This document shows positions 26,318 through 51,067 of a stretch of 64,000 nt of DNA, piece after piece. The translations under genes and the position numbers were made by a program. Position 1 is the first letter of the stretch, and each line of letters begins with the position of its first letter. This stretch comes from Gossypium raimondii (Eukaryota; Streptophyta; Magnoliopsida; Malvales; Malvaceae): the NCBI RefSeq assembly GCF_025698545.1, contig NC_068575.1:58165980-58229979 (forward strand). Direction: 5' to 3'. The notes beneath the pieces are model-generated. The model had not been told where the DNA came from. It saw only the letters and a list, made by a program, of their open reading frames with translations, and did no database searches.

Positions 26318-29300
26318 GGCAGATCAGTTGGATTGTACTGTGGCCGACCCAACCCCGATGTGCTTAAAAACTTAAATACCAATGCTGTTCTCTCAATCAA
26401 CTATAATTTCTTTACTTTATTCATTTAAAATAAAAATTTTATAATTTAAATAGCTATGTGTTGAATTATTTTCTAAATGTTTATAAAACTTTAACACTAT
26501 TTACTATCTTGTCACAAATAATCAAATAATTCAATTCATAATAAAATTACAATCATTTCTAAGCTTAAATCAAGCATATGAAACATTAAAACAATCTGAG
26601 AATAAATCTTAACTAAACTGAAAGTTTTACAAAAACTTAGATGAAAACTGAAAATAAGAATCACACGGCCGTGTGACAAAGCTTAAATGTGAGATCCTAA
26701 AGTATACGGTTTAAATATTATGACACGGTTTAACATATGGGATGAGATATAGAGAAGTGTATTTAATTTGGTGGGTGAGAAAGGGGAAGGAGAAGGAGAC
26801 GATGGTTTGTTAAATAAATAAACAAAAACATTATTTAACTAATAATTTAGAGTTATTTTAGTATAATTTCAATAATGTTTTAGGGGTAATTTTTATAATT
26901 TATATTATTACCTAACTAATTAACTTTAATTTAAAATAATTTAATAAATTTATCTCAAAATTAATATATAATTAAATTAAATATAAATTTAAAATACTTA
27001 GTTTATTTGAAATCAAATAATATATTTTATAAAAGAAATATATATATATATTTAATTTTATAGTATTTCAAAATGTAATTAAATTTTCATTATTTTATAA
27101 AATAAATAATAAGAGTACAATTAACTCTTTTTTTTACTTTAAATTTATCTAATATATAAATTTTGAAAGGTCTATAAAAATTTCTTCAAACTTGAGAAAG
27201 TAAACGATAAAAATAATCGTATTTTATATTAAACATGAAAAATTTAAATTTCTTTTACTCTAAATAATAAATATAAATATATAGTTATAATAACGTGCGT
27301 GATTGTTAATGAAATTTAAATGATGTAAAGTCCATATTCTATGGTCGGAAAAATTGGTGCTACCAAAATCTATTAGAAGGTACGAATAATTTTAGAATGG
27401 TATAATTATTCATTTGATCCTATAACTTTAAAAAAATTATTTTAGTTATTTATTTAATTCGCTTTTTAATTTTTAAAAAATTATCAAATCATCTCAAATA
27501 GATGAAAAAGTTAAATTCTTTTAACATTGTTGATGTAGCATACACATGGATTACCATATAGATGTCATGTTGGCATTTAATTGATTTTTAAATTTTAAAA
27601 ATTTTAAAAATTAAAAATTGTTGTTTTAATTAAAACCATTAAAATTATTGTAAAAAGTATAAGAATATAAAAATTAATATTTTAAAATTTAAAAGAAAAT
27701 AATTAAACACTTGCATGTCATCTAGGAGGCAATCCACGATATCACAAAGTTAACATACATTAACCTTTTCATATAATTTAGAGTAAATTGATAAAAAATT
27801 TAAAAAATTAAATAAAGGACAAAAATAACTTTTTATAAAATTGGAAGACTTTTAGGACTAGTTTGACAATACTTTTGAAAAGTGCTTTTGAAAAATAAAA
27901 TGTTCATTTTAGACATGATATTATAAAATAACAAATATGTATTTAAATAATGTGCAAATTAGTTAATATTATGATATTTTTAGCAAAAATATAAAAATAA
28001 TTTATTATAACTTATTGTTAATATTTTAATATATAATATTAATTTTAAATATTTCTAAGTAGTTAATATTAATTATTTATTAAATTTAATTAAAATATAT
28101 AAACTATATTTAAATATTTAAATATAACAATTAAATATTTGTAATTAGGTATTGACACGATCGTATTTTTTTAAATTATTTTTATTTTTAATTAATGCTT
28201 TTAACACATTTGTATTATTTTATTTTAAAATGTATTTGAATATATAACTCATATTAGATATTAACATAACATAGAAAACATAAACCTAACAAATTAAAAT
28301 AGTAAGGTTAAAAGTAAAATACCAGCCAAAAACACTTTTGGGCTGAAAAAGCTAAAAAATTTTTATTTTTCATCTATGAAAAAGCACTTAAAATAAGTTA
28401 AAAAATTTATACATCGACATCTGTTCTTTATTTCTTTATAAAGAAAACACTTTTAATAAAAAACTCATCTGAAAAGCATTAAAAATACAACCTTAGAATC
28501 CAACCAAATTACGCCATCTAAAACATATGGTATAGATATATCAAAAGGTTGGTGTATCTCTTACCTTTTATATATAAACCAAATAAAATAATGATTTTAG
28601 TGTTGAATTATGGTTAAATTAGTTAAGCTATTTAATAACAATAACTAACCGAATTAATATCACCAAACAATTTAAATGGAATTAAGGCTTAGTTTGGATG
28701 GGCAGTGTGTTTAGCTCCGGTGAGGTTAATTAGTTACTGTAGCGGTGAGATTGGGTACTGTAGCAGTGAGATTAGAAACAGCGGTGAAGTGTGTGTTTGG
28801 ATTCAAACGCAGCTGTAGCGGTGAGGTAAAAATAGAAAATGACTTTCAAGGACATTAGATTAAAAATGATATATATTATAAGTTTTTAAAATTATTTAAC
28901 AATTACAAAATTAATAAATGATTAAAAATTATTACAATTATATTTATTTTTAATGATAAATAATTAAAAATAAATTAAAACTAGAGAAAAATTCAAAAAT
29001 TTATTTTATTTAATATTTCAAAATTAATCATATATTTAATTATAGGAGAAAAACGAATTACATGTAGTCCGGATTACATGTGTTGGTTTTTTTAGCAGAA
29101 AACTAAGGAGAAAAAGAAAAACGAATGCAAAGAAGTTTGAAGAAGAAGAAAACTGAATTTGATTTCCAAAAATCAGATCTTTTTCATTGACTTGAGAAGC
29201 ATTTATGTTACAATAAAATATGGCAGTTAACTAATGTATAACTGCTCCCACAGCCTAGATAGAATTACAAACAAAATGTAGCTGACATACCAGCTATAAC

Positions 29301-29341
29301 ATCAAACATAAATCAACAGCTACTCCTACTAACTTTAAGTA
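26318..29341. other. 3-kb AT-rich intergenic region with degenerate repeats
   Basis: No gene recognised. Composition is extremely AT-rich from 26800 to 28700. At about 27850-28500 there is a degraded sequence with repeated AAAAGTGCTTTTGAAAA-type motifs that look like a decayed MITE. At 28690-28825 there is a partial relative of the Harbinger-type MITE at 29345 (shared GTTTGGATGGGC and CTGTAGCGGTGAG motifs). Confidence 0.45.
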
Positions 29342-29344
29342 TAA

Positions 29345-29494
29345 GGGTGGGTTTGGATGGGAGATTGGGTGCGGTGCAGTGCGTTTAGCTTACTTTTTGT
29401 CTCACGCTACAGTATCGCTACAGTATCTAATCTCACCGCCACCACTGTTTTTACACTAACCACAAGTAAACGCACCGCCCATCCAAACTCACCC
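29345..29494. mobile_element. PIF/Harbinger-type MITE (Tourist-like)
   Basis: A 150-bp element with ends GGGTGGGTTTGGATGG and CCATCCAAACTCACCC, which are inverted repeats. It is flanked by TAA on both sides (29342-29344 and 29495-29497), the 3-bp duplication typical of PIF/Harbinger. It marks or lies close to the low-coordinate edge of the captured-fragment mosaic. Confidence 0.82.
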
Positions 29495-29561
29495 TAAATT
29501 ACATTGCAACTAAATCAAGTTACAAATGAACAAAATAAACAAAATGTCTTTGCTTATCTGT

Positions 29562-29606
29562 TCAACTTGGATCTTTGTCTGCATCTTTGGTTTCTTCTTT
29601 GGTTTC
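29562..29606 (-). pseudogene. Possible terminal-exon fragment of unknown gene
   Basis: On the minus strand, after CAATAG at 29607-29612, a 14-codon frame reads ETKEETKDADKDPS and stops. It looks like a short final exon and lies in the same orientation as the neighbouring captured fragments. The source gene is not recognised, and this could be chance. Confidence 0.25.
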
Positions 29607-29964
29607 CTATTGCATTGCAGGCCAAAGTTCAACAACATCCTATACTTTGCTTACTAACAAAGTAGTGCATATTCCTTTTAGTGCATTAAGGGGAATTATG
29701 ATTATGGTATGTTAGACATCAGAAGAACCTATATATTCTTAAAAAGTAAATATATGAAAAAGCAGAGTGTTGAAATGACTATTCAATGACATTGAAAATA
29801 ATATATGGGTGTCCAAAATTCAGATTCAAAGGCATAAGCAAAGCAAAAAACAAAGACAATGTCACCACAGAAACTGTAAACTAAATGAAATATCGTGCAA
29901 GGCTGATCCAGAGATAAGAAATAAAATCTTTATTTGAAGTTCAAGGTCTTTGAAATGAACATAC

Positions 29965-30073
29965 CCAAGCAAGCAACAAGGTAACTTCCAAAGCAATACA
30001 TTGCAAATGATTCATAGCGATCATGTAGTATCGAACAATCAACACTAACTGATGGATGCACCAATGATACAAA
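29965..30073 (-). pseudogene. Isolated exon of a DUF300/TMEM184 (LAZ1-like) gene
   Basis: A single 109-nt exon, with a TTAACAG acceptor and a GTATG donor intact. It encodes FVSLVHPSVSVDC followed by YESFAMYCFG and SYLVACLG. This is the characteristic stretch of plant DUF300/TMEM184 (organic solute transporter alpha-like) proteins such as LAZ1. No other exon of that gene was found nearby, so it is a captured fragment and not a gene. Family identification is from memory of the conserved block. Confidence 0.8.
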
Positions 30074-30437
30074 CTGTTAAAATAATCCAGGTTAGTAAGA
30101 CTGAAAATAACATATAATTACACGGATGCATGGTGCAAAATTAACATGTTGCATCTTTGTGCCAAAACTATACTCAAAACTTAAATAGTAACCTAAGTTG
30201 AATATAGGTCAATTTTTTTGTAACATAAATATGCTACTGCTGGTTTTTACTAATTCCTAGCACATAAGTTGTTGAACAGCTCAGTTTAACAAGAAGGTTT
30301 AACAGTGTTACTCAATTGGACTAATTTCTTAGTGTTCATAAAATATGATGACCATTCTGACAAATCAGAGGGACTAACTTCTCAGATGCTGTAAAATAAA
30401 GGGATAAATTTCATAATTAGACTTAAAAAAAGCATAC

Positions 30438-31017
30438 TTGAAAGAAGAAATTTCAGCCTGTGAGTTCTCCAATTGCCTCTCCAATTTTAGCTCATTTGAC
30501 CTTAATCGACATGCCTACAGAAAGGATATTAAAAACATTTTAATCTAGCAGAAGACAAAAGTAATTTCACTCCAGTGTCAACAGCTTTATACAGAAATAT
30601 ATTAATGGAATAAAGTAAGAAACTCCAAATGCTAATAATATCATATAAAACAAGCAAATAACAGGATCAAATCAAATATAAAAAAGGACTAGAGAGCCAC
30701 TTAAGTTAAACTGGCACTTAAAAATGTTGCAGCTCTACTTTACATCCAAGAAACACCCTTCACGTGGTATATATTACAACCATGCATATACGAACATGGC
30801 AGCTTACTGATCTTTCAGCATTATTATTAAAAGTGATATATGTTTTGTAATGAATAGAATGAAATTGGAGAAGGAAGAAAATCTTTACCCATTAAAACTT
30901 TGTTACCTTCTCTTCCAAACCAATGACTTCAGAAGCCAATATATTAGCATGTTCATCAGCTGCATTACATTCTAGTCGTGCATTTGCATATTCCATTTTA
31001 AAAAACTCGAGCTCTAC
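30438..31017 (-). pseudogene. Two-exon fragment of a BLISTER-like coiled-coil gene
   Basis: The first exon, 30907-31017, is 111 nt and open, reading KMEYANARLECNAADE then ANILASEVIGLEEK. The second, 30438-30514, is 77 nt, reading RLRSNELKLERQLENSQAEI. Both retain splice sites and join in frame. The pattern matches the SMC-like coiled-coil region of the plant protein BLISTER (BLI), a Polycomb-associated factor. Everything upstream and downstream in that gene is absent, and the fragment sits between pieces of SEC22 and a DUF300 gene. Untranslatable as a normal protein. Confidence 0.75.
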
Positions 31018-31339
31018 CTGCAATACCAAACACCAGGCATAGCAAGAATAAAAAAAAGGGATAGGGGCTGAAATAGAATTTTGTTGACATTTTAAAAAGT
31101 ATTTGTAACAAGCTCCCTAACAATTTGAACATCACTAGACAAAGAACACAAGAGAATAAAATGCAGATCAACATACATACGGCATAGCATTTTAAAATAT
31201 AACATAAAACTGAATTCATCCTGTGCACCATCCTTTGCAACAAAAGAAAACCATTCAAAACAAAGACTTATTGATCAGACTATTGAAGAGTCATAAAAGA
31301 AGTCACAGGAGTCTAACAACAAAAATTCCCACTGCAATG

Positions 31340-33672
31340 ATAAGAACGGTCACACATAGGGTTGTGCATTATTCGGTTAAAACCAAATTTTTTCGGTTAA
31401 CCGACCGATTAACTGAACTCGGTCGGTTAACCAAAAAAATTCAGTCAGGGGTCGGTTAAGTTTTTTTGGTTTGTTCGGTTAACGGTTAAATCGGTTCGAC
31501 ACGGGTCGATTAACCGAAAAATTCGGGTAAACCGAATTTACACCCTAGGCCTACTCCCTCCCAATTTAAACCCAGCCCAATTTAAATCCAACCCAATTTT
31601 CTCTTAGGCTTACCGAATAGGACAGGCCAATTTAAATCTTGCTGCTGTCCATTACCATTTGGTCCATTTCTTAGCAACAGATTTCACAACACCCCTCCAG
31701 CCCTCCTCCCTATATTATTTGTAGATGTCTATTTTTTTTATTACAATATAATTAAATATATTTATTAATTTTATTAAAACTTAAAAAGAAATCCTCAATC
31801 CAAAAAAAAAAATTGATAGTTGCACAATTTTTTTATCATATCCACACTTGTGTTACCCCAATCCACATTAAAAAAATTGTGTTTTTTTCTTTTTACACAT
31901 GGCAATGTTTGATTGTATAGGATAATTTTTTAACAGAAAACATAAATGATGTGATAAAATGTACAAAACAACAGATAGAATCCAAACTCATAAAAAACTT
32001 GTACGGGTGCCAAAGTGATAATATAAACATAGTACAAAAGTCAAAAGAGAAGTCAAAATAAACTTAAATATTTAATGATTCAAATAAGAGTCACATTTAT
32101 TCATATAATTAACTTTTTTATTACACTTATATTATATTTGTGAAACCCTCAACTTACTTGTAAAGTCTAAAAATTTCATTAACAATGTACCAAATAGTTT
32201 CTCTTTTATAATGATTATAGCTAAATTAAAATTTTAAATGAATTTAAAGGAAACTATTTGATTTGATGCACTTGTTAGTGAAATTTTATATTTCTAAAGC
32301 AAGATCAGGTTTTAACAAATGTCTTATATGAGGTATAGTAAAATATTAAAAATATATATTTAAAAGAAAGGCATAATTTTCTTAAGTTACTTGTGGAATA
32401 AAATAAATATATTATCAATGTATCAAATATTAATTTTAAATTTAATTAAAATTATGGATTGAGAGAATTGTAATTCTAATAATTGCATGTGTTCATCTAC
32501 TATCTTATTTAATATAAAAAATAGACATCTACAAATAATATAAAAATAGACATCTATATATTTAATTTTTTACCATATCACTCTTACTTATTTAATTGAT
32601 TCAATGTTTAGACATTTCTTGAAATGCATTAGAGCCTACCCTAGATTCATGAGCTTTCGTGAGTTGAAGGGTATGCTTACTACTATCTTATTCTTGTTAA
32701 TTTATATTCTATTCGTTTGTTTATATTATTTGATTTTTTTAAATGCGTATATTTCTATTATATGCTAAATTTTTCTCATGTTTTTTTAGGTTTAAAGCAA
32801 ATGGAGATATTTTGGAGAGATGAAATGGATATAAATGGAGAATATTAAAACTTGCATGTCAATTATGTGTTAATTCAAGACTTATGTAATGTTTTTAATT
32901 ATGTAGTGATTCAAAGACTTATGCAATATTTTTAATTATGTAGTGATTTAAAGATTTATGTAATGCTTTTAATTATGTAGTGATTTAATTCAGGTAATTC
33001 GGGTAATTTGGGTAATTTTCGGGTAATTCGAGTAATTTTCGGGTAATTCGGGTAATTCAGATAATTCGGGTAATTTTTAACCAAAAATGAACACATATTT
33101 TTCGGTTAATTCAGTTAACCGACTTTATTAACCAAAAAAATTCGGTTCGGTTAATTATTTTAAAAAAAATTCGGTTTGGTTAACGGTTAAAAAATTTGAG
33201 AGGTCGGTTAATTCGGTTTTAACAATTTTGGGTCGGTTAACCGTTCGGGTAACCGACTGAACACCCCTAGTCACACATTGTCAAGTAACAAACACAACCT
33301 TCAATGATATAGCTATAAACTTAGGTCAAGGTAACACCATAATGGTATAATTCAGATGCACCTGCAAATTGAGAAAAACATACAACAGAACTTATTTCTT
33401 TCCCTCAATAGACCATAAAGTATAAACCTATTTCATAATTCAAAAAATATGGCATCCAAAAAATAGACACTAGGACAAGGATACTGGAATACATAAGGAC
33501 CAGTCTCGACAGACATCCTTGAAGCTTCATTATGGCCTTTAGAGAGATTCTTAAACAAAGCCTCAACTTGTTGTTTGTACATTTCGGCATCTGTCAGATC
33601 CCGACCATCATCTAGTCCCTCCGCCAGAGGAAGACCATCAGTAACACAAGCAATCATTGTCAGTTTCACCAT
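31340..33672 (-). pseudogene. 5' fragment of a SEC22 R-SNARE gene, split by a transposon
   Basis: The first coding exon is 33485-33672 and begins MVKLTMIACVTDGLPLAEGL, the longin-domain start of SEC22, the ER-Golgi R-SNARE. The second exon starts at 33312 (YIIEGCVCYLTMCD). It is interrupted at codon Asp by a 1.9-kb element (31357-33269) and resumes at 31356 with three matching codons (RSY), after which similarity to SEC22 stops near 31340. The rest of the longin domain, the SNARE motif and the membrane anchor are missing. A 5' UTR exon with a GTAAG donor lies at 34338 and above, so the fragment may still be transcribed from its original promoter. Confidence 0.85.
31357..33269. mobile_element. 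1.9-kb hAT-like element inserted in the SEC22 exon
   Basis: The element starts TAGGGTTGTGCATTATTCGG and its other end, read in complement, is TAGGGGTGTTCAGTCGGTTA. It is flanked by perfect GTCACACA at 31349-31356 and 33270-33277. An 8-bp duplication with ends of this form indicates hAT. Both subterminal regions carry many copies of TCGGTTAACCG-type motifs, and there are (GGGTAATTC)n-type repeats near 33000-33060. No transposase frame is present. Confidence 0.87.
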
Positions 33673-34337
33673 CTTTACTCCCCTTTTTCTCAGCTTTCAC
33701 AAAATCCCTTCAAACTAATAGAAACGCAAAATTAACACCTTAAGTAAAAACTAACAAGCCAAATTCCATACCATGATATTAAAAAAAGGCATGGCGGATT
33801 TCAATTGACTATAATTCGATAATTTCATTCTCAATCTTAATGGTACAACCACCCACCGCAAAGCTGAAAATAAATAATATTTTCCACTTGAACAATTATC
33901 ATTGCAAACAATTAAAATTATCGAGAAAAAAACATAAATTGATTCCATAATTTTGATTTTCACTAAACCCTCATCATTGGTCAAAAGCAAGATCGACCCA
34001 ACACTTCTTTTTCCAATCGAAAGGTCATTAATGTAATCCAAAGACAACCAATCTAGTCAATGTCATCACGATCTGACAAGGAAATATATATATTTTCAAG
34101 GATTCCAACAAAACCCAGAAATTCAGTAGAAGAAGAAAAAAAATCTCATATAAGAATTTCCACAACGAACGATTTTTTCTTCAAATAATTATATGCATGC
34201 ACATTTAAAAATCGATAAATAAAAGCTATTAGTTTTTAATGGAATACCTAATTAGAGCATGTAGGTCTTCGGATTTCTCCTTGATTTCAAGGATCAGAAA
34301 AAGGAATGAAGAACGGAAGAAGGAGAAGGAGCCTTAC

Positions 34338-34500
34338 CTGGATGAAGGAGGAACCGGAAGAGGTCCTTGACCAAACTGATTTGTAACCCAAGGGGAAGGG
34401 GAAAGGGGAGAAAAAGGGTAACCAAACATCAGAAAAACCTGAAGAATGCAATTGAAGAATATATGGGTAAAAGAGGAAAAGAAAAAGCAACTGAAGTTGC
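34338..34500 (-). promoter_or_regulatory. Probable 5' UTR exon and promoter of the SEC22 fragment
   Basis: On the minus strand, CT-rich leader-like sequence ends with a strong donor (CATCCAG then GTAAGG) at 34338. The next acceptor is expected just upstream of the ATG at 33672. The 5' end of the exon is an estimate. Confidence 0.45.
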
Positions 34501-34806
34501 TAAATTTTTACTGGACCAAAAGGCTCCAGTCTGGAATTAAGCCTCCGGTGAGGTGAAATGCATTTTCAACGTATTAAAGAATACTTTCCAAACAACCTTG
34601 CGTTTGCTAACATTTCAGTTGCAATTTTTTTTAGCCTAAAAAAGCCAACGTACGTATTGGAACCCAGTTGCATCCAAAGGAACCCTAAATAAACATTCAT
34701 GAGTTTGCGTACGGAATCTCAATGGGTTAGCAATTAGCATAACAAACTACCTCAAACTAAATACTTTAATATATTAGATTTTATTTTAACAATTTCATTA
34801 TAATTT

Positions 34807-34967
34807 TTGATCATATTTGCTTTTTTTGATACAATATCTGTAACTACTCATAACCCCTCCCCAACTCATGGAAGAATAATGCGTTTCAGTGCACTCGAAT
34901 CCACGTCTTCCTATATTGACAACAATATTTATGCCAGTCAAACTAAAACTCAATCGACTATATATTA
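34807..34967 (-). repeat. SINE-like tRNA-derived repeat
   Basis: Read on the minus strand it begins GTCGATTGAGTTTTAGTTTG, has a B-box-like GTGGATTCGAGTGC, then GCACTGAAACGCATTATTC and a conserved GGTTATGAGTAGTTACAGAT tail. It shares order and wording with the plus-strand copy at 54186-54314. Confidence 0.55.
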
Positions 34968-35437
34968 GATTATTAAATACTTTTATATACATGTATTATA
35001 TACTAGATTACATAACAAGTAAATAATTTATGAATTTTTTATTATTTTTGATTTTTTTAAAAGTAAATTTATTAATTCATTTAATAAATGGAAGCATACA
35101 ATTCAGAGAAAAAAATAGCAAACACTCATCGCAGATGATAAATGACAAGTTCTCTATCAACATAATAAAGACTTTAGCCTCAGCATTAATAGAACATTAT
35201 GACACATTGACAATTGACTTTGTCATAGCTCAAGCACGACATATCTGAAGTGATTGCAAACACTTAATACAATAAAGAAATTAGCCTCGAATGGTCTAAA
35301 GCGGTGAGCAAAAATCAATAAAAGAATCGAGCATTCACCAAACCAGAGAGGACGACAACAAAATCATCCCTAAAATCATTTGTAAAACTAAGATTAAATG
35401 CATAAGTAAGACTAAAAAACGTGCTACAATAGCAGAC

Positions 35438-35582
35438 AAAAACTTCTAAAACTGAAGACTTATTAAACAATGGAAAAACAAACAAAAAAAATATAAAACC
35501 TAAGACAACACGGTCCAAATTGACACATGTAATAATTTATTATTTTAAAATACTCTCAAACGATAGTTAAATTGGTTTTATG
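35438..35582. repeat. 145-bp dispersed repeat, copy 1
   Basis: Nearly identical to 39824-39969 in the same orientation. Shared runs include AAGACTTATTAAACAATGG and ACTCTCAAACGATAGTTAAA. Similarity stops abruptly at both edges. The two copies bracket the peroxidase pseudogene. Confidence 0.85.
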
Positions 35583-36114
35583 GTTTTTTTACTGTTTTTA
35601 TAATAACTTTTGCTACGATTTTTATTATTATTTTTATTTCCGAAATAAATTCTCTTTTCCTAAACCTACCGTTTTCGTATCTTTATCTGATTTGTAATTA
35701 ATTGAAGTTTGATACGATTTTACTTTAATTATATGCTTCATTTAACACTTAAATAATTAACTCAAATTTTAAATCAATTAATTAGTTGACAAATAAATCT
35801 TTAAAAATCAAAATGAAGATGGCAACACATTACTCCACCTCGGATTAACTTAATATTAAATATTAATTTATTTATCTTTAACTTGACTTTAAAAATCAAA
35901 GATTTACCTTTTGACCCAACTTGATATGCCCATAATTCTTTTATTTTTATTAAAATGGAACAGTAATTTTAATTTATTATTATTTTCAGTGATGCTATTA
36001 ATAGTTTTAGGGTATAATTATGTTAGAGTAAACATTAATATAAATTTTATTATCATATATTTTAAATTATAAGTGTTCATCGATTGAGTTGAGTTGGACC
36101 CAATATTAAAATTC

Positions 36115-36208
36115 GATCTTAGCCCACCCTCCCTTATATATATATTTAAAATATTAAAATTGATCTTAGCCCACCCTCCCTTATATATATATTTAAAATA
36201 TAATACAT
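36115..36208. repeat. Two tandem copies of a 47-bp unit
   Basis: GATCTTAGCCCACCCTCCC starts at 36115 and again at 36162, followed in each case by TTATATATATATTTAAAATA. Virtually identical copies, so a recent duplication. Confidence 0.9.
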
Positions 36209-37611
36209 AAAAATACTAAAATATTAAAATAAATGTTTCTCAACAACTTGAAAAAAATGTATACTTAAATAATACTAAGATAGGTGTAACTTAATAAGTA
36301 AATATCTCTAAAATCAAAATAAAATTTATAATAAAACAAGAGTTATATAATGTTCAAATATTAACAACAAAACAGTAGCATCGTAATAATGAGATAGTAG
36401 CAAAATAATGAGAAAACAATAAAAAATAGCAAAAAAAAAAATTAGACTTTTGCAAATTCTGGTCCGGGTCAAAAAAGCCTTACCCGAGGCCTGACTTGTT
36501 TTTCAAACTGCCTTATTTTCTTGCCCAAACTCATTTTTCAGACATATATTTTTATCAAATCTTTTCACTTTTTAAACAGAGCCTTCAGGCTAGATCCGGT
36601 GACCCAATCCATGAGCAAATCTATTTTAAACTAATATCATAAATAAATGAGTTGTTTGATAATTATCTCAAGGTGGGTTTTTTTTTTTTTTTAAACTTGA
36701 TCTAATCCATCTACTTAAAAAAATTAAGTTTATCTTTACTCGTACTAAAATCCGATTTTTTAAAAAAATCTATTAAATCAAATCGGATCCGAATTCTTTT
36801 GATATACCCAAAATTGAAAATATCAGACATGCTTACGTACAACCAATGATGTTAGGTTTAAGTTTAGTAGGACCGATGATATTGTTCTTAAATGAAATTG
36901 CCATTGGCTTATTTATTCCCAAAAAAATTGCCGAGTCTTGTTAAAAAAATTTCAAGGAGTCAATGCAATTGTTTAATAATGTATATATTTTTAGGTACAG
37001 ATCATTTTTATTAAAATTTAATCAAGAGTTTGTATAATACTTCTTTTTATGACAGCGATGTTTTAAAGTTTCGGGAGAGTTTAGTAAAACTTTTTAAAAT
37101 GTTGAGAGTTTAATGAGAAAATTTTAAATAAAAATTAGGATCTAATTAAATTTTTTTGTAAAATTAATAAGTATTTTTAAAAGTTTTAATTGATTTTTTA
37201 AAAATTTAAAGATATAATGTGAATTTTCAAAATTTTAAAAAGAGTCTAACTAAAATTTTTTAAAAGCTCAAAAAGAGAAATGAAAATTTTTAATAACTTT
37301 AAAAGACTAATTAAAACTTTCTAAAAAGAAAAATCAAATTCTCCTAAGCTACCAGTCTGGCTCTGTTCAGTGACCAAACCAGTAGTTTGCATAGATCTTA
37401 CACTCAGTGATTTGACAACACCTCACTAATTAACCCAAAAGTTATTTTTAGTAAAAGTCAAAAATAAAAAAAATGCTTTTGGGACGCCCCCGAACACCAA
37501 CTGGGAAGTGGGAACAAATAAAGGGACAATAGTTGGCCAAGCACACACAAATGAAATTAACATAACAAACAGGGATACAAACTTTATTCATATAACTATC
37601 ACTTCCTGATT

Positions 37612-39823: not shown

Positions 39824-39969
39824 GAAAACTTCTAAAACTTAAGACTTATTAAACAATGGAAAAACAAACAAAAAACATATAAAACCTAAGACAACACGGG
39901 TTTAAATTGACACATGTAATAATTTATTATTCTAAAATACTCTCAAACGATAGTTAAATTGGTTTTATG
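39824..39969. repeat. 145-bp dispersed repeat, copy 2
   Basis: Direct repeat of 35438-35582, differing at only a handful of positions. It begins 72 bp after the end of foldback copy B. Confidence 0.85.
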
Positions 39970-40219
39970 TTTTTCAGTTTAGTTATTTTTACCAAAAAAA
40001 AGTTAACACGAAATCAAAGGTAAATAACTTTTTAACTCTCAACATTAACAGCTTTTTGTCAAATTGGTTTTACTCCTTAGAAGCACACACTTTTTTTTTT
40101 AAGTTTTAAAAATAACTTTTTTCATATTTTAAATAAAACATAAAAATAATTTTAAAAATAAAAAATAAAAACTCTTTAAAATTCAATAAATAAAATTATT
40201 TTAAAAATATAAAAACAAA

Positions 40220-50147: not shown

Positions 50148-51067
50148 TTTCTTTCACTTTTTGCTTACAAAGGAAATGAGGTAACTAAACGAAGAAGATT
50201 GGAGTTGTTAGCTAAAAGGGATCACTTAAATGCGAAAAGGAGAGTTGGGGAAGGTAGGAATTTATTTAGTATTCCATCATGTGATCTCAATTGATTTTTA
50301 AAAAATATATATATTATATAATTGGAACAGCACAAAAAATAATTATTTTATAGACTTTTCTTATCTATTATTCATAGTTTTTTTCTAATTATTTAATGAT
50401 ATTTTAGAATTTTTTTCATATTATTGACACATAATTCTAATACTTCTTTTAGCTTGAATTTCGAAACATGAACTCTTAATTTTGAATCATGAACCTCGAA
50501 CCCTAAACTCTAACTTTAAACCTCAAACTCTAAACCTAAATTTGAACTTTGAACCTCAAGTTTGGGGTTCAATATTCAAGATTTGAAGTTCGAAGTTTGT
50601 GATTTAAGGTTTAAAATTTAAAATTCAGTATTTAGGATCCAAAGTTCGAGGTTCAAAGTAAAAAAAAATTACCAAAATTATGTATTCAAACTAATTATAT
50701 CATTAAATCGGGGGTCGGTCGGTTCGGTTAATTTTTTGAAAGTATAAATTAATCAGTAATTTGATTAATTTCTTATATGTTTTATGCTTGTTTTAACCAA
50801 AAATAAAAAAAAAACATATAAATTTCGATTAATTCAGTTAATCAACCGAATTAATCGAAAAAGTTTGGTTCGATTAATTTTTTTAAAAACAATTTCAGTT
50901 TGGTTAATGGTTAAGAGTTTAAAAGAATCAGTTAATTTGGTTAATAGTAATTCGAGTCGGTTAACCGATTAAACACCCCTAATAACTACATAACTTTTCA
51001 CATATTTAAAACATTCTTGAAAGTTTATATTTTTCATTTATGCCCAATAATATTTAAAATAAAAATT
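50148..51067. other. Spacer between the peptide gene and the solo LTR
   Basis: Peptide-gene promoter side, then an odd block (50450-50660) in which AACCTCAAACTCTAAA-like phrases recur and are mirrored by GGTTCAATATTCAAGATTTG-like phrases, forming a low-quality palindrome. Then a truncated copy of the hAT-like family. Confidence 0.45.
50700..50981. mobile_element. Truncated relative of the TAGGGG hAT-like family
   Basis: Shares the GGTTCGGTTAATT subterminal motifs and the end GGTTAACCGATTAAACACCCCTA with the element at 31357-33269. The left end is degraded, and no target duplication could be recognised. Confidence 0.6.

Follow-up and report, generated by a model that had tools for sequence, protein, structure and literature searches.

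A mosaic of SEC22, BLISTER and DUF300 fragments in Gossypium raimondii is the probable cargo of a PIF/Harbinger-type Pack-TYPE transposon

Parts of SEC22, BLISTER and DUF300 genes lie in a single orientation within a 64-kb stretch of Gossypium raimondii DNA (the window; contig NC_068575.1, positions 58,165,980 to 58,229,979). We consider it very probable that this mosaic is the cargo of a PIF/Harbinger-type Pack-TYPE element that gained its pieces by stepwise internal-replacement capture and whose copies later exchanged segments. The element ends, target duplications, donor genes, shared junctions and copies in intermediate states on which this argument draws were all observed directly. Coordinates are those of the whole window unless a locus (L) or an element coordinate (E, counted from L009:2752) is given, and the term window copy denotes the element at 28686-34685 (Table 1), which measures 6000 bp with its nested insertions and ~3.93 kb without them.

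All captured fragments of the window copy are read on the minus strand. The first-pass annotation had described pieces of at least three unrelated genes in one orientation, with introns and splice sites retained, and both points hold: the genes are SEC22, BLISTER and DUF300, and canonical GT or AG stands at all eight intron borders read in the fragments, the leader donor also being GT. SEC22 exon 1 (33672-33485) matches SEC22b chains in the PDB (E 2.7e-6) and cotton SEC22 P0023 at 97%; the partial exon 2 starts at 33312, is broken by an insertion and resumes to ~31339. The DUF300 exon scores 27.5 bits against PF03619 (cut-off 24.9), and the name BLISTER is based on cluster P0011 and on frames at locus L020. 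In element coordinates, SEC22 occupies E2523-3561, BLISTER E1400-2459 and DUF300 ~E867-1393. No Rfam family reached its gathering threshold in the window.

Table 1. Features of the carrier element and its insertions, in window coordinates
Feature	Position	Strand	Remarks
Whole carrier	28686..34685	- (strand of captured genes)	ends common to L009, L010, L011; TAA/TAA duplication
Left terminal inverted repeat GGCTTAGTTTGGATGG	28686..28701	+	TAA just before
Left end and body of element	28686..29689		inner border approximate; includes 29562-29606
Nested 150-bp MITE (miniature inverted-repeat transposable element)	29345..29494		related terminal repeat, TAA duplication
DUF300 (Solute_trans_a / Ost-alpha, LAZ1-like) fragment	29690..30218	-	exon 30073-29965; borders approximate
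BLISTER fragment with introns	30223..31275	-	exons 31017-30907, 30514-30438; borders approximate
Spacer of ~65 bp, older element body	31276..31338		also in BLISTER-less L026 and SEC22-less L012, L013
SEC22 fragment (upstream DNA, exon 1, intron 1, part of exon 2)	31339..34295	-	hAT-interrupted; borders approximate
Nested non-autonomous hAT-type element	31357..33269		inside SEC22 exon 2; absent from L009, L010, L011
Right end of element	34296..34685	-	5' splice donor at 34337; also in SEC22-less L012, L013, L015, L026, L027
Right terminal inverted repeat, inward reading GGGTTCCTTTGGATGC	34670..34685	-	TAA just after

Genes elsewhere in the genome match the SEC22 and BLISTER fragments, introns included, at 96% and 95% respectively, which excludes chance similarity. 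The SEC22 donor is the gene at C10:5.19 Mb (L029), which matches all 205 residues of P0023; the captured stretch begins ~630 bp before the start codon and ends midway through exon 2, and the C5 paralogue reaches only 70% over it. The BLISTER donor is the gene at C3:3.42 Mb (L020), other loci standing at 72-73%. It has further exons on both sides of the captured part, and its up- and downstream frames, judging by a motif, are presumably BLISTER exons. For DUF300 the nearest gene, at C12:5.353 Mb (L038, C12:5353461), is 80% identical, introns included, and its frames indicate DUF300 exons on either side of the matched part; it lies ~11 kb from the element copy L026 (C12:5364606-5366433). Beside the SEC22 donor, at L029:8102-8251, is a 150-bp MITE with TAA ends and the same type of terminal repeat, ~3.2 kb from the captured stretch. 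Retained introns, donors elsewhere, further copies and defined ends bear out the original proposal of DNA-level capture by a transposable element, and the genome comparison advised along with it has supplied both donor genes (C10 SEC22, C3 BLISTER) and other copies.

The carrier's ends emerged from comparing those copies. L009 (C3), L010 and L011 (both C11) align with the window copy from end to end, with two identical stop points, and the full span 28686-34685 was chosen because these three loci carry exactly those two ends. The interval originally delimited, 29345-34500, contains the mosaic but is smaller than the full feature, and the failure to find convincing ends at that stage recurred in our blind scans but not in the comparison of copies. 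The terminal repeats of the window copy, GGCTTAGTTTGGATGG and GGGTTCCTTTGGATGC, are identical at 12 of 16 bases. Of the copies whose two ends were both read, seven of seven have matching 3-bp duplications with no filter applied (window TAA, L009 TTG, L010 TAA, L011 TGA, L013 TAA, L019 TAA, L024 TTA); unpaired ends were also read, seven further left and one further right. A motif scan of 26 sequences, whose output comprises only equal-duplication pairs more than 300 bp apart, found paired ends with equal duplications in 12 elements, the window's included (TAA in six, TTA in four, TTG and TGA in one each). The pair found at L016 is that of a smaller neighbouring element, the other 13 sequences yielded no equal-duplication pair, and in the window the scan also pairs the carrier ends with those of the nested MITE.

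PIF/Harbinger (Tourist-like) transposons make 3-bp target duplications, with TWA preferred, and encode a DDE transposase and a Myb-like protein or are moved by a relative that has them. The family shows both the 3-bp duplication, TWA-type preferred, and short terminal inverted repeats, and we infer that the carrier is a non-autonomous PIF/Harbinger-type (Tourist-like) Pack-TYPE transposon, the superfamily being assigned from the ends only. Because no uninterrupted frame of at least 120 aa occurs in 26318-37611, the window copy shows no transposase gene; an intron-split one would escape this test, and an autonomous PIF partner was not searched for. What characterizes a Pack-TYPE element is present: host gene DNA lies between transposon ends, donors exist elsewhere in the genome and no transposase frame is seen.

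The carrier had at first been taken for a Helitron or a Pack-MULE, and its terminal inverted repeats with 3-bp duplications point elsewhere. Helitrons have a 5' TC, a 3' hairpin with CTRR, no terminal inverted repeats and no duplication. Capture by a Helitron would typically keep introns, hold to one orientation and draw on several donors, as here, but the inverted repeats and duplications at the carrier ends, together with end scans near the mosaic that found no convincing CTRR with hairpin, make it extremely improbable; the end candidates that were turned up were AT-rich, internal to the hAT-type element or weak. Mutator elements and Pack-MULEs have long terminal inverted repeats and ~9-bp duplications. 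Pack-MULEs do carry multi-gene chimeras, but the short terminal repeats here and duplications of 3 bp, not ~9 bp, leave Pack-MULE capture with next to no credence. When terminal repeats with 8-10-bp duplications were sought blindly, only AT-rich noise came back.

Short frames and stop codons would also be seen in a degraded real gene region or at an assembly join of unrelated contigs, but three more loci, on C3 and C11, have the same mosaic, and annotations of other cotton assemblies include SEC22-BLISTER fusions (P0010, P0018, P0022, P0032), so that either explanation is scarcely credible. The assembly join, which the first-pass annotation had named as an outcome that could overturn its reading, is excluded because L009-L011 carry the mosaic end to end and the internal junctions compared are identical in L010 and L011. 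Two stretches first read, one of them tentatively, as exons of the mosaic belong to the element instead. The supposed SEC22 leader exon (34338-34500) is part of the right end, which is present in SEC22-less copies, and the supposed terminal exon (29562-29606) is part of the left body, whose piece E679-850 is present and the DUF300 part absent in 11 of 41 genome-search rows.

When 29345-34500 was searched against the 750.8-Mb assembly, 40 of 4802 candidates were scored and yielded 56 rows (copy counts are lower bounds), and 20 loci were retrieved with flanks for comparison. The full mosaic is carried by the window copy and by L009, L010 and L011, on C3 and C11. L026 has DUF300 without BLISTER and without SEC22, a pattern that recurs at C12:47.82 Mb and C1:44.75 Mb (genome-search rows only). 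L012 and L013 have DUF300 and BLISTER, with an 812-bp body between E2521 and E3553 instead of SEC22; because L026 shares that body (~94% alike), we conclude that SEC22 replaced it. In L014, L015 and L017 this place is taken by a 1.05-kb segment (95-96% alike mutually) that in L015 (L015:5517-6583) encodes part of a DUF7803 protein (Pfam, E 3.1e-25); L016 and L018 have the same breakpoints. A 1.8-kb segment in L019 (L019:4994-6824), L022 and L023 (94-96% alike) replaces parts of BLISTER and SEC22. Loci L034-L037 match the DUF300 part at 89-91% and have a further stretch in common, whose L036 version codes for a piece of a serine carboxypeptidase (Pfam, one strand, E 5e-7), and L025, L027 and L028 are without DUF300. 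On the one strand scanned, Pfam returned a single row, below its cut-off, for the L019 segment, and no rows for the 812-bp body (L012), the left segment of L015 or a 1.5-kb segment of L027. In L024 and L027 the BLISTER stretch is longer, and E2259-2459 is repeated after it, ahead of the common right junction; this 200-bp repeat, suggestive of a restart of synthesis on the same template, is possibly a trace of repeated template invasion.

These intermediate states suggest that the captures were serial, with DUF300 first, then BLISTER, and SEC22 late. DUF300 is placed before BLISTER because L026 and the carboxypeptidase copies have the former without the latter. In the four full copies, Kimura distance to the donor is 0.023-0.034 for SEC22 and higher, at 0.036-0.059, for BLISTER, as fits a later addition of SEC22. 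The BLISTER tree unites all five copies that have DUF7803-type breakpoints (support 0.990) and, in a second clade, three of the four carriers of SEC22 (0.963). In a poorly resolved tree of the DUF300 segment, L026 clusters with the copies bearing DUF300 and carboxypeptidase, away from the BLISTER carriers (local support 0.959).

The left BLISTER junction is identical in 10 copies (L010-L015, L019, L022-L024) and the right one is common to L010-L013, L024 and L027. For SEC22, L010 and L011 share both junctions, and L019 and L023 the right one; the match of L022 in a short comparison starts only at E3561. Since junctions are identical in most of the carriers checked, a single capture each is indicated for BLISTER and SEC22. 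A different route would start with fusion of two neighbouring insertions and mobilisation of the DNA between them, as in the Pack-TYPE model that Gisby and Catoni (2022) put forward and that PMC8903248 describes for maize and rice Pack-PIF; internal deletions would then follow. The DUF300 gene near L026 on C12 and the related MITE near the captured stretch of the SEC22 gene would suit it. But BLISTER and SEC22 are flanked on both sides by body sequence that also occurs in L012 and L026, and the BLISTER donor stretch (9.9 kb) has no other match to the element. Terminal-repeat remnants bordering captured DNA, the hallmark of such fusion, were not seen in six copies: the best terminal-repeat-like matches inside them have 4 mismatches, none is at an internal junction, and the closest lies ~23 bp inside the BLISTER part, in donor sequence. 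We therefore regard fusion of neighbours as unlikely, though it keeps a small share of the probability. As the interior was replaced, microhomology is small and no terminal-repeat match lies at the junctions, we favour a break or excision gap repaired on an ectopic template, and the internal replacements most likely reflect such gap repair or template switching.

Under ectopic gap repair, a transposase supplied in trans would move the element by its terminal inverted repeats, insertion leaving 3-bp duplications of TAA/TTA type. A break or excision gap within the element would then be repaired from the wrong template, so that DNA of an ectopic gene replaced part of the interior. Cargo would be added stepwise in this way, from DUF300 to BLISTER to SEC22, and the enlarged element would move on, its copies later exchanging segments.

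Several observations weigh against this account. The terminal repeats are alike at only 12 of 16 bases, two of the 12 duplications are other than TAA/TTA, and microhomology at the breakpoints amounts to a few bases at most. L027 is without the common left BLISTER junction. With the closest DUF300 gene only 80% identical, the donor of that fragment is uncertain, and either its capture is old or the donor has been lost. L010 falls outside the SEC22 carriers in the BLISTER tree, grouping with L024, and in the DUF300 tree the SEC22 carriers form no clade, at low support. Mean differences per site among the four full copies are 0.043 for the left end, 0.043 for DUF300 with its tail, 0.050 for BLISTER, 0.026 for SEC22 and 0.069 for the right end; such unequal distances are not expected from plain descent of one SEC22-bearing ancestor, and they weaken the dating. 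They suggest exchange of segments between copies (clearest in L010) or unequal rates. The low SEC22 distances among copies are thus unsafe as a clock, as distances among full copies vary by segment. L010:2790-6710 is a possible recombinant, with a BLISTER part nearest the L024 group and a SEC22 part close to L009 (0.013).

The hAT-type element and the MITE nested in the window copy arrived later than the mosaic. The former is flanked by an 8-bp duplication, GTCACACA, at 31349-31356 and 33270-33277, and its ends, TAGGGTTG and TAGGGGTG, are alike at 11 of the outer 20 bases; the 8-bp duplication and short repeats are those of hAT elements. Part of it (33075-33243) is similar to window 50791-50967 at 76%. 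Outside the carrier, a 150-bp direct repeat (35439-35587 and 39825-39974) is 95% identical over copies ~4.4 kb apart, and a flanking pentatricopeptide repeat (PPR) gene at 22735-24822 matches a cluster represented by G. mustelinum A11 gene 0707 at 98% over 86% of its length.

A chimeric transcript of the window copy is possible, and a working protein from it is unlikely because SEC22 exon 1 spliced to the BLISTER exon runs into an immediate stop and exon 2 is broken by the hAT-type element. Cotton gene models do join pieces of the mosaic (P0002, P0006, P0007, P0010, P0018, P0022, P0032), and P0008, a G. raimondii model labelled isoform X1, fuses a BLISTER exon with a different segment from a relative. 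P0001, also from G. raimondii, shows no difference from the window over 63 BLISTER residues, yet its last exon was not found there; it may stem from another copy or another assembly. Five host fragments were recognised in the family (DUF300, BLISTER, SEC22, DUF7803 and carboxypeptidase), all in the orientation of the leader, DUF7803 with the qualification that only that strand was Pfam-scanned. Tentatively, and against the odds as we see them, the family could be a natural exon-shuffling cassette in which host exons are exchanged between first and last exons supplied by the element. The upstream exon and splice donor would come from the right end, and the acceptor, the short last exon and the stop from the left body; between them, exons would be swapped by recurrent faulty gap repair that draws on host genes and sister elements.

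Elements of this kind, Pack-TYPE, are already known; what is unusual here is the completeness of the capture record. Maize Helitrons are reportedly built up stepwise, one study having described successive acquisition of gene fragments; they resemble the cotton family in their stepwise gene pieces and differ in belonging to another class, with no terminal inverted repeats or duplications. Pack-MULEs likewise hold multi-gene chimeras with introns, but have Mutator ends and ~9-bp duplications. How terminal-inverted-repeat transposons gain host genes is debated between neighbour fusion and gap repair or template switching (PMC8903248, PMC8277862). Pack-PIF, which the former explains by fusion of neighbouring insertions, is like the cotton family in being non-autonomous and multicopy, with terminal inverted repeats and host gene DNA. 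The cotton family, however, chains three gene fragments in one copy and at least five across its members, and its BLISTER and SEC22 captures are internal replacements rather than the fusions of neighbours which that text describes. For animal Pack-TIRs, PMC8277862 reports gap filling with a median microhomology of 2 bp and gaps with a median of 4.6% of element size. The cotton family shares with them gap filling or template switching and short microhomology inside the element, and some Pack-TIRs are also multicopy, whereas the SEC22 step in cotton replaced ~812 bp of the interior. The word Gossypium does not occur in the text of PMC8903248, nor harbinger in that of PMC8277862, and the literature searched, with little reach into subscription journals, held no description of this cotton family. 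The family explains a set of small annotated cotton 'genes' as fused SEC22, BLISTER and DUF300 pieces, and with pre- and post-capture copies, donors and junctions together in one genome, each capture step is testable.

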